Origin: an uncultured Acidimicrobiaceae bacterium
GTDB lineage: Bacteria > Actinomycetota > Acidimicrobiia > Spongiisociales > UBA5794
Length of the DNA stretch: 64,000 nucleotides
Reading direction: 5' to 3'
NCBI GenBank assembly: GCA_947259365.1
Contig: CAMYMC010000043.1
Span: 1 to 64,000, forward strand
The notes under the pieces are model-generated. The model saw only the letters and a list, made by a program, of their open reading frames with translations. It made no database searches and was not told the origin of the DNA. Numbering within the stretch: position 1 is the first letter of the stretch; every line of letters starts with the position of its first letter. The position numbers and the translations under genes are program-made. Below are positions 54,988 to 58,208 of the stretch, piece after piece.

Positions 54988-56547
54988 TCAGGGCTCGACG
55001 GTGACGAAGCTGTTGACGAGGTCTCGTGCCACGGATGACACGTCGAGCCAGAAGCTCTTGTTGTCTGGATCCCCGGGCGCGAAGAGTTGGTCGTACTTGA
55101 CCCGATCGTCCCCTCGGGGCACCCGGCCGACGGCGCGTGCTGCGAATTCCTGGAGCTGCCTGGCGTTCGCGAGCTTCGAGTTGACCGCCGCGTAGTAGAG
55201 GCCGAGCTTCTCGATGGCGCGGATCTCGTAGCCGAGCTCGGCGCCTGCTTTCAGCATCTGGGCGATCACGACGAGCACCCTGTCGCCGAAGCTCATCGGT
55301 GGGATGACGAACTGATTCCCCGACGGCACCCTGCTCAAGACATCGCTGCCCTTGGGTCGCAACGACATCCGCTGCTTCAGCCCGTCCAGGCTGAAGCCGG
55401 AGCTTCCGGCCAGCACGAAGACGACATGCGCCCGGCCCTCGACGGTGACGTCGAGGTGCGGCATCAGTACCTCGTACGGCCAGGTGGCATCGGCGTGCGC
55501 ATCGACCTCGTCGATGAGACACAGCACCGGTCCCTCGAGGGTCACGAGCCGCTCGAGCGACGCCCGCAGCGACTCGGCGCCTTGTTTGGCGAGATTGACC
55601 TCGACGTACTCGCACATGTCGCCCTGGTTCCGGGCGATCTCCTGCACGAGGAAGGTCTTGCCGGATCCGGGCGCCGCCCACACGAGGTGGTTCTCCCGGT
55701 GGGGCGTGTCGGTGTCGAGCCCGGCCACGACCCGGTTCCTGGCGTCCTTGAGCTCGTTGAGCACGGCGTCCTCGTACCGCGAGTAGTCACCGACGACCCG
55801 GTACCGGCTGACCGACAGCGTGTTCATCGCCTCGACCAGGGGGTATTGCCAGTACGGGCTGGCCTTGCCGAGTTCGTGCAGATCGTCGTGATATCGCGCC
55901 AGGTATTCCTCCGCGTGTTCGAGGTAGTCGGGCTCCAGCCGACTCCGGAACAGCGGACCCGAGAAGACCATGGCCCAGTCGGCTACGGGCAGCACGTAGT
56001 CCTCTGCCGCCCTCACGTAGAGGGGCCACCGCTTCATGTGCTCTTCCGACCGGAAGAGATTCATGCGGCTTCAGTTGAAGGCGCCGGAGCCCTCCCTCCA
56101 TTCGACGAAGGGCGAAAGCATGTACCCGACCGCCGTCGTCGGATCCACATCGAGGAGCTCGTCATCCCGGAGCCGGACAGCGATGGGCTCACCGCAGTCG
56201 AGGCATGTCGTGTTGATCTCGATGTCGCTACCAGGGAAGAGCCAGCGCACGGCCAGCGACTCCATCGCTCACTGGCCGAACCAGCGCTCCACCCCGTCGA
56301 CCGAGATCCGGAAGTGGGTCGGAATGTTGGAGAACGGTGCCCACGACTCCACCAGATCGGTGTCGCGGGCCAGCCAGCAGCCGGCTACCGGGCCGGCGTC
56401 GGCTGTCTCGTGCAGCACCGATCGCGCCTCCTCGAGGTCGATGTCGAGCGCGGTCGCGAGCTCCGAGTAGTGGGGAGCCCTGCCGTGGTCGACGAAGAAC
56501 CTGAGCACCGTTGCATACGACGACTTCGCCAGCTCCGATACGGCCAC
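54988..56547 (-). CDS. MerB-like / AAA ATPase fusion, probable selenoprotein with two UGA codons
   Basis: Read through two in-frame TGA codons, this is one 519-residue protein. Residues ~10-55 form a winged-helix start as in alkylmercury lyase. Next come FGQ-U93[13 protein letters not shown], CLDCGEP (C115, C118) and GAFN-U159[15 protein letters not shown]. MerB has catalytic Cys96 and Cys159, structural Cys117 and Asp99; here U93 is followed at +3 by Glu. Residues ~275-519 form an AAA ATPase with Walker A APGSGKT (~292-298) and Walker B LCLIDE (~342-347). The GTG start has GGAGGTGA upstream; the inner ATGs at 56265 and 56064 have none. Sec insertion is inferred. The alternative is a gene broken by two nonsense changes. 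Confidence 0.75.
56041..56058 (-). other. SECIS-like hairpin after the second UGA
   Basis: On the minus strand CTCTTCCGGTCGGAAGAG folds into a perfect 7-bp stem with a GGUC loop. The loop begins 20 nt after the UGA at 56073-56071. Bacterial SECIS elements have a short stem, a G at the start of the loop and a distance of about 16-37 nt; E. coli fdhF also has a GGUC loop. An outer CCGC/GCGG pairing is possible. Confidence 0.7.
56071..56073 (-). other. in-frame UGA, proposed selenocysteine 159
   Basis: The frame reads AAC TGA AGC CGC ATG AAT CTC across this codon. The flanking protein, GAFN before and [11 protein letters not shown] after, continues the MerB-like domain, where MerB has catalytic Cys159. 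Confidence 0.72.
56269..56271 (-). other. in-frame UGA, proposed selenocysteine 93
   Basis: The frame reads GGC CAG TGA GCG ATG GAG across this codon, at the position of MerB catalytic Cys96. A weaker stem can be drawn downstream (GAGT...GGCTC around CGC-UGGCCGU-GCG). Its loop begins about 14 nt after the UGA, nearer than usual. Confidence 0.65.
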
Positions 56548-56639
56548 ATCTCACCTCCCGTCGGGTAGGAAGCCGTCAGCCTCGGCCGCGAGCCATCCGG
56601 CGTATCGACGCTAGCGCGCTGCTGGCGCCGGTGTGCAGT

Positions 56640-57296: not shown

Positions 57297-57745
57297 CAGC
57301 TCCGCGGCGAGACGATGGCCGTGCCGTAGCAGAAGATCTCGGCGCTCGGCATCCGAGGCCCCACGTCGGACCACTCGAAACGGACGTTGACGACGAGGTC
57401 GGCGCCCACCGCCTGGGCCTGGTCGGCCATCCGCAGCTTCGCCTCGCGACGAGCCCGGTTCAGCATCGACTGGTACGTCTTCACTTCGCCTCCGAGGATG
57501 TTGCGAAACATCGCGGCGAAGCTCTTGAAGTAGTCGGCGGCGATGACCACCTCACCCATCACGAGTGTTCCCGCGGCGGCGTCGACCCCGGGCGGAGGCG
57601 ACTTCACGTCGACGACGACGACCGGTGATGCCGCCTCGCGGCGATCCAACTCGGCGAGATGGCGACGCTCCCGGGCGCGCCCCACCCCGAAGCCTACGAC
57701 GACGAGACCTACCGTGACCAGGAGCGAAACGAGGAGCTCGACCAC
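57296..57745 (-). CDS. membrane-anchored UPF0145 (YbjQ-like) protein
   Basis: This 149-residue protein has an N-terminal membrane helix (~3-22) and a charged coil. A YbjQ-like domain follows with VMGEVVIAADYFKSFAAMFR, GEVKTYQSMLNRARREAKLR and GADLVVNVRFEWSD. UPF0145 proteins form pentameric rings and their role is unknown. It is separated from the next UPF0145 gene by one base and overlaps the PrsW gene. Confidence 0.75.
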   Translation of the reverse strand: MVELLVSLLVTVGLVVVGFGVGRARERRHLAELDRREAASPVVVVDVKSPPPGVDAAAGTLVMGEVVIAADYFKSFAAMFRNILGGEVKTYQSMLNRARREAKLRMADQAQAVGADLVVNVRFEWSDVGPRMPSAEIFCYGTAIVSPRS

Positions 57746-57746
57746 G

Positions 57747-58061
57747 TCAGTCCACCGTCACCGCAGTGCCGTAGGAGTAGAGCTCGGCGGCACCACCGGC
57801 CACCGATGAGGTGGTGAATCGCACGTTGACGATGGCGTTGGCGCCGAGGGCTTCGGCCTGGGCGATCATCCGATCGATCGCCTCGCGGCGCGCCTCGGTG
57901 AGCAGCTCGGTGTAGGCCGTCAGCTCGCCACCGACGAGGTTCTTCAACGCAGCACCGATGTCACGGCCGACGTGCTTGGCCCGGATCGTGTTTCCCTGCA
58001 CGAGACCATGGAACGCTGTGATCTCACGCCCGGGGACGGTCTCGGTGTTGACGATGATCAC
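57747..58061 (-). CDS. UPF0145 (YbjQ) protein
   Basis: This 104-residue soluble protein has the full UPF0145 pattern: VNTETVPGREITAFHGLVQG, GAALKNLVGGELTAYTELLT, EARREAIDRMIAQAEALGAN and AIVNVRFTTSSV. The start is GTG 58061, behind GGGAG. It is the first gene of a three-gene run with a membrane-bound relative and PrsW. The function is unknown; the older heavy-metal-binding label is not supported by visible metal ligands. Confidence 0.85.
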   Translation of the reverse strand: MIIVNTETVPGREITAFHGLVQGNTIRAKHVGRDIGAALKNLVGGELTAYTELLTEARREAIDRMIAQAEALGANAIVNVRFTTSSVAGGAAELYSYGTAVTVD

Positions 58062-58165
58062 CGTTGTCTCCCTTCGACGGACGGCAAGTATACGGACGGC
58101 CCCGCCGGGCAACCTGCCGGGTCCCGACGTCCGGCGCCGTGACACCGGCCCGGACGGCCACGCGG

Positions 58166-58193
58166 TTGACAGTTCGCAGCGCCGATGTATATC
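58166..58193 (+). promoter_or_regulatory. sigma-70-like promoter of the ABC importer operon
   Basis: TTGACA (58166-58171) and TATATC (58188-58193) are separated by 16 bases, 80 bases before the substrate-binding-protein start. It is one of the few AT-rich consensus-like promoters in the window. Confidence 0.6.
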
Positions 58194-58208
58194 TTCCCCC
58201 TCACTCCC

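Follow-up and report, generated by a model that had tools for sequence, protein, structure and literature searches.

A MerB-like protein fused to an AAA ATPase with UGA codons at both catalytic cysteine positions, a probable double selenoprotein

In MerB the mercury is held by Cys96, Cys159 and Asp99, from which thiols or MerA remove it (PMC4525700, PMC8261052). The MerB signature consists of Cys96, Asp99, Cys117 and Cys159, and Asp99 is called strictly conserved in the available part of PMC8261052. The position numbering used here is that of these two reports. A MerB-like protein with a single selenocysteine (Sec) is already known. This is SaoL, which belongs to the Sec-assisted organometallic (SAO) operon and is listed with one Sec in the available part of PMC13188914. 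An alkylmercury lyase MerB-like selenoprotein also figures in an earlier review (PMC9312934, in the part available). A literature search found neither a double-Sec MerB nor fusions of the kind described below in titles and abstract openings; the primary SAO papers were outside its coverage, and the double-Sec form could be described there.

The window, i.e., the whole stretch of DNA analysed, comprises 64,000 nucleotides from an uncultured Acidimicrobiaceae bacterium. A single minus-strand frame runs from a GTG at 56547 to a TGA at 54990-54988, and its only internal stops are TGA codons 93 (56271-56269) and 159 (56073-56071). Full reading confirms the original prediction that three neighbouring minus-strand frames, split only by TGA, are one frame; the terminal stop is likewise TGA. 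A Shine-Dalgarno-like GGGAGGTGA is found upstream of the GTG start and, by eye, neither internal ATG is preceded by one. This agrees with the claim that only the outermost start has a ribosome-binding site. In a Pfam search the MerB family (PF03243) covers residues 72-190 of the protein with 68.8 bits (cut-off 27), as expected if the joined frames form an alkylmercury-lyase-like domain, and AAA covers residues 288-387 with 27.0 bits (cut-off 21.2). Sequence comparison strongly supports a predicted protein of 519 residues with Sec at 93 and 159, each Sec codon having its own SECIS hairpin and being decoded by SelA, SelB, SelD and tRNA-Sec. The features are as follows.

54988..56547, minus strand: predicted double selenoprotein gene (MerB-like plus AAA ATPase), 519 residues, UGA codons 93 and 159 (frame reading, Pfam)
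56551..56559, minus strand: Shine-Dalgarno-like GGGAGGTGA ahead of the GTG (partly by eye)
56338..56547, minus strand: MerB-fold N-terminal helical region, residues 1-70 (predicted structure)
55978..56334, minus strand: MerB domain PF03243, residues 72-190 (Pfam)
56269..56271, minus strand: UGA codon 93 (site 1), predicted Sec at the MerB Cys96 position (alignment)
56260..56262, minus strand: Glu96 at the MerB Asp99 position (alignment)
56241..56257, minus strand: site-1 SECIS hairpin GCUGGC-CGUGC-GCUGGC (folding, comparison)
56194..56205, minus strand: CxxC (Cys115, Cys118), structural Cys117 region (alignment)
56071..56073, minus strand: UGA codon 159 (site 2), predicted Sec at the MerB Cys159 position (alignment)
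56041..56058, minus strand: site-2 SECIS hairpin CUCUUCC-GGUC-GGAAGAG, encoding LFRSEE (folding, comparison)
55387..55686, minus strand: AAA ATPase core, residues 288-387; the module reaches the C-terminus (Pfam, alignment)

Resemblance to MerB extends to the three-dimensional fold. Searched against the PDB, a profile built from nine family members hits five distinct sequences, each of them MerB or MerB2 (best 5c17, 3.2e-10). In two of the profile-PDB alignments, residue 93 is on the Cys96 position and residue 159 on Cys159, and thus the TGAs are where the original prediction placed them, at the catalytic Cys residues. A model of residues 1-258 has a pLDDT of 77.6, with residues 146-158, directly before site 2, below 50. 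It matches 11 PDB chains below 1e-3, again all MerB or MerB2, with moderate TM-scores of 0.41-0.52 over the query. Alignment and fold place the two predicted Sec at the Cys96 and Cys159 positions and Glu at the Asp99 position in a MerB fold. The protein therefore departs from the MerB signature and reads Sec, Glu, Cys in the 117 region, and Sec. Of the catalytic set Cys96/Asp99/Cys159 invoked beforehand, both Cys positions are indeed UGA, and the acid is to be refined to Glu. The CxxC at 115-118 is present as described, in the region of the structural Cys117. In common with MerB (PDB 3F2F, 3F0O; MerB2 5C17) are the fold, PF03243, both metal-ligand positions and the Cys of the Cys117 region; different are Sec for both Cys, Glu for Asp99, the fused AAA and a genome without MerA above cut-off.

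SaoL (NF040728) is, like the window protein, MerB-like and Sec-containing, but it has one listed Sec in place of two UGAs, and the window protein scores 39 bits with NF040728 against a cut-off of 140. The Sec-assisted organometal system with a MerB-like member that the original prediction invoked is in print (PMC13188914, in the part available), but its listed member is a single-Sec protein from which the window protein is distinct. The 159-position NF040728 model ends where site 2 falls in loci L146 and L147, and the SaoL Sec may correspond to site 2. Eight neighbours of the window gene were scanned with the Sao models, and none was found among the matches listed (best 25 in one table).

Relatives were surveyed in two ways. 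In the window's order, 53 of 138 genomes searched with PF03243 gave matches, and 68 MerB matches were aligned (G133:C160, G019:C196, G106 and G030:C135 were left out). Site 1 has 56 Cys, 10 UGA and two gaps; site 2 has 24 Cys, 43 UGA and one gap. Two further TGAs occur within the matched stretches. G074 has one in a Cys/Cys protein, and G035 has the other in a fragment that scores under the family cut-off. Named bacterial genomes, scanned separately, contributed 76 loci, which with the window make 77 rows. Four rows (L177, L178, L180, L182) proved misaligned or partial and were excluded; the raw count's stray C, H and K came from two of them. Among 71 usable rows, site 1 is UGA in 51 and Cys in 20. 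Site 2 is UGA in all 71, a figure biased towards UGA by the search pattern [RNQ]MNLFRSE, which is encoded by the site-2 SECIS. Both sites are UGA in 49 rows; L164 and L176 have UGA at site 1 and are unaligned at site 2. UGA at site 1 combined with Cys at site 2 was never observed in the order alignment or the named scan. Relatives carry only Cys, TGA or a gap at these positions, and alignment of homologues at 93 and 159, proposed as a check, gave Cys or UGA at both. This supports the argument that the two TGAs did not fall on catalytic Cys codons by chance.

The Asp99 position is occupied by Glu in 66, Asp in three and Ala in two of the 71 usable rows, and 67 of 72 rows, the misaligned L178 among those counted, conserve the CxxC. 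Only one usable named-scan row, L174, has an additional in-domain TGA. This third in-frame UGA, at residue 104 between the two sites, is absent from relatives and is perhaps a base error or the sign of a damaged copy. According to record titles, which can mislead (e.g., L116 and L130, titled Acidobacteria), double-UGA rows come from Actinomycetota, Chloroflexota, Deltaproteobacteria, Nitrospirae, Gammaproteobacteria, Lambdaproteobacteria, Rokubacteria and Acidobacteriota, among others. No relative was found on viral contigs, and a plasmid search gave a single weak match (24%). A first scan of genome contigs with a single protein and six narrow exact patterns, one of them with Cys at the UGA, found no relative.

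The window's genome has a second MerB-like selenoprotein gene (G000:C1:100998-101357; L034, L080), with Cys at site 1 and UGA plus a GGUC loop at site 2. A distant double-UGA group is found in three genomes (L071, L072, L073; G036:C376, G026:C96, G010:C395). It reads AAU-AADAIA ... DDFU-ENVFLWSEEH and has Asp at the 99 position. Its site-1 hairpin is placed differently: the stem is CCCUU/AAGGG and lies nine bases further on, with an identical CGUGC loop.

At the RNA level, both UGA codons are followed by hairpins. The site-2 SECIS has a 7-bp stem and a GGUC loop at +22 to +25 after the UGA. All 97 distinct UGA segments have this loop and none of the 25 Cys segments does, one of the 25 coming from the misaligned row L177. 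Pairing in the stem is 96%, compared with 42-59% when slid, and double changes occur at five of the seven pairs. This hairpin is written by codons such as TTC CGG TCG GAA, and the conserved FRSE motif is thus an RNA constraint. The site-1 SECIS, GCUGGC-NGUNN-GCUGGC, has a stem that is 100% paired (rounded) in 52 sequences, compared with 12-51% when slid. The loop GU is found in 52 of 52 UGA sequences and in 16 of 71 Cys segments. Covariation at site 1 is small, with a double change in one of six pairs.

The bSECIS model calls for a loop of 3-9 nt with G within its first two positions, a stem of 4-16 bp, a spacing of 16-37 nt and a minimum free energy of -7.5 or lower (PMC13188914, in the part available). 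Both window hairpins fit it. Site 1 has loop CGUGC, 6 bp, 17 nt and -7.5 kcal/mol, exactly the energy limit; site 2 has loop GGUC, 7 bp, 19 nt and -9.6 kcal/mol. Against synonymous-codon shuffles, p<0.05 was obtained for 54 of 71 site-2 UGA segments, 28 of 51 site-1 UGA segments and one of 21 site-1 Cys segments. For the window itself, p is 0.045 at site 2 and 0.14, i.e., non-significant, at site 1. L177 or L178 is counted among the Cys controls both in the SECIS comparison and in the shuffle test. Three members with Cys at site 1 (L114, L161, L166) retain the hairpin, as expected of recent Sec-to-Cys changes.

All three coding segments, before, between and after the UGAs, evolve under purifying selection. 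In eight gene pairs, dN/dS is 0.08-0.51 where computable, and, for stretches with saturated synonymous sites, pN/pS is 0.33-0.55. A quick tree, with long branches flagged, covers 127 domains and leaves out L177, L178, L180, L182, L164, L176, L156, L179, near-duplicates and rows lacking a site. The window groups with L107 (support 96), and both lie within a clade of 72 rows, 51 UGA/UGA and 21 Cys/UGA (support 99). Seven state changes are needed on the tree at site 1 and three at site 2. The second double-UGA group falls outside the 72-row clade on a long branch that was flagged, and is likely independent of it. Perhaps two separate lineages reached the double-Sec active site independently.

The genome of the window (3.34 Mb, 94% complete) has the machinery for Sec insertion. 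The search proposed for selA, selB, selD and tRNA-Sec found all of them: selA (420 bits), selB (321) and selD (391) are above cut-off, selA adjoins selB, and tRNA-Sec, at 72.9 bits, exceeds the gathering score of 47, its anticodon being UCA by eye. The two tRNA-Sec matches are one gene, inside a 99-base overlap of contig ends (G000:C37:1-99 and the end of C41). The SelD of this genome (L016, G000:C37:25583-26506) itself has a UGA, in the GUACK motif. A GGUC stretch lies downstream of that UGA, and the minimum-energy fold is without a clean GGUC-loop hairpin.

In the window's order, selA is present in 114 of 138 genomes and in all eight with a double-UGA MerB; it is counted as absent from G132, G133, G135 and G137, which do not appear among the matches listed. 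It is found in 31 of 36 genomes with any UGA-type MerB, the five without it being at most 82% complete, and in 12 of 16 with Cys-only MerB. These similar frequencies (Fisher p 0.43) mean that selA presence does not discriminate UGA from Cys-only MerB in the order. In the 49 genomes behind 49 named loci (45 double-UGA, four Cys/UGA; L150, L173, L181 and L128 left out), selA is present in 44, and the five without it are all double-UGA. Sec machinery, homologues with only Cys or UGA at the two sites, and a SECIS behind each UGA together support the original proposal that both UGAs encode Sec.

Most relatives have no additional domain. Beyond site 2 the frame continues for 64-88 residues in 58 of 71 rows, which are stand-alone forms, for 234-236 residues in five and for 359-361 in eight. 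One stand-alone relative, L119 from Desulforhabdus sp. TSK, probably comes from an isolate, its record carrying no MAG label. By domain search, L115 has a class III cyclase, and both L107 and the window protein have AAA; by BLAST, the remaining four cyclase-length rows cluster with L115 and the remaining six AAA-length rows with L107. The ATPase fusion noted earlier is a minority architecture within a larger Sec-containing family. Four of the order's 138 genomes have the AAA module, namely the window's, G056, G088 and G082. In G088 and G082, where selA was not found, it stands behind a YheO-type PAS domain, PAS_6 (shown for L185, by eye for L186), in the place of the MerB of the window protein, and the C-terminal AAA modules of L185 and L186 are 53% and 50% identical to that of the window. 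In L187, likewise from one of these two genomes, the module follows a TPR region that is below the Pfam cut-off. On this basis AAA is taken to be the output domain and the seleno-MerB the input domain. Fusion of AAA elsewhere to PAS_6 or TPR, together with the cyclase that replaces AAA in sister proteins, is the pattern expected of a signalling output. With NF058673, for LipJ-type lipase-adenylate cyclase fusions, the cyclase part of L115 scores 193.9 bits against a cut-off of 800; both join an enzyme fold to a signalling output, the input being a lipase in LipJ and a seleno-MerB in L115. A full-length structure model made without an alignment has a pLDDT of 36.9, and coupling between the MerB and AAA domains is therefore proposed from these architectures.

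MerA usually accompanies MerB, though it is not a strict requirement. No MerA above cut-off was found in the window genome (best 312.7 bits, cut-off 454.45); a search of 47 genomes, without G175 and G184-G186, found one in 11. In G056, a mercuric reductase gene (L074, 2941-4776), with an N-terminal heavy-metal-binding-like stretch by eye, is ~3.2 kb from the double-Sec MerB-AAA gene. MerA matches at other context loci have 34% identity in L095 and L096, perhaps related reductases, and cover 107 residues in L166; a Cys/Cys MerB locus, L100, has a 66% MerA match nearby. To test for a conserved operon, the genes around the 76 loci and the window were clustered; 45 clusters were outlined and nine examined closely, and such an operon was rejected. 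The largest clusters are pieces or antisense reads of the MerB gene, others are scattered broad families (regulators, SDR, luciferase-like), and no conserved neighbour among them links the family to mercury. Upstream of the window gene on the minus strand are tandem genes for YbjQ, a putative heavy-metal-binding protein (57299-57745, 57750-58199), and likewise a PrsW-like protease gene. BLAST found none of these three genes in the fetched neighbourhoods of relatives.

The explanation considered probable is that of a double-Sec MerB-fold protein which captures an organometal and signals to the AAA domain. The two selenolates would capture an organomercurial or a similar soft organometal, and Glu96 may take the part of Asp99 in proton transfer and hydrocarbon release. 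In the window protein, capture would be the input signal to the C-terminal AAA ATPase; the commoner stand-alone relatives may be lyases or scavengers. In its favour, work with model compounds found Hg-C cleavage to be faster with selones than with sulfur analogues (PMC11639659, in the part available). Weighing against this explanation are Glu in place of Asp99, the lack of MerA above cut-off in the window genome and of conserved neighbours linking the family to mercury, the non-significant site-1 hairpin of the window, the five double-UGA genomes in which selA was not found, and very tight Se-Hg binding, by which turnover could be hindered. Capture and sensing would appear to fit at least as well as detoxification, given that the window genome has no MerA above cut-off and that MerA is present in 11 of 47 genomes.

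The double selenoprotein might instead be a selenol redox or electrophile sensor, perhaps a diselenide switch, devoid of organometal chemistry and with the MerB fold as a scaffold. The AAA and cyclase fusions would suit such a sensor, as would Glu in place of Asp99 in 66 of 71 usable rows and the lack of conserved mer neighbours and of a Sao model beside the gene among the matches listed. It is rather unlikely: Sec is exactly at both mercury ligands, 69 of 71 rows have retained an acid at position 99 (66 Glu, three Asp), and the nearest named family, SaoL, is part of a proposed organometal system (PMC13188914, in the part available). A different question is whether UGA-159 alone is efficiently decoded as Sec, with UGA-93 a regulatory or leaky stop and the product mostly truncated. 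The weaker site-1 hairpin (-7.5 kcal/mol), the double change in only one of six pairs and a Sec/Cys state that changes about seven times on the tree point that way. Nevertheless, the GU loop is invariant (52/52), the stem is kept, selection continues downstream, and the distant group keeps a CGUGC loop in a different stem, all of which makes a leaky site 1 very improbable. Still less can be said for a decayed MerB-AAA pseudogene or a sequencing error with two nonsense mutations. A plain reading does yield three short open reading frames, but dozens of genomes share the identical two UGAs, purifying selection acts throughout and the SECIS are conserved; this reading was rejected as having next to no likelihood. 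Reassignment of UGA to an ordinary amino acid, e.g., Trp, in the lineage would explain the open frame and nothing further. The window gene has 11 TGG codons and ends in TGA, Sec machinery and SECIS are present, and homologues have Cys at the sites. The chance of reassignment is negligible, and it was likewise rejected on the shared sites, selection and SECIS.

If expressed, the double-Sec protein would have a MerB-like site with selenium as both metal ligands and would provide a natural test of selenium versus sulfur in organometal chemistry. With natural Sec/Cys pairs at site 1 (L114, L161, L166), what the first Sec contributes can be tested directly. Ordinary gene-finding would cut these proteins short, and surveys that demand Cys96 and Cys159 (e.g., PMC8261052, as described in the part available) would miss the family; bacteria that handle organomercury or other organometals are thus perhaps undercounted. 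More tentatively, and as a possibility short of probable, a diselenol MerB-fold family that crosses phyla may detect or destroy trace organometals, and in Actinomycetota and Chloroflexota may have become a sensor with AAA or cyclase outputs.
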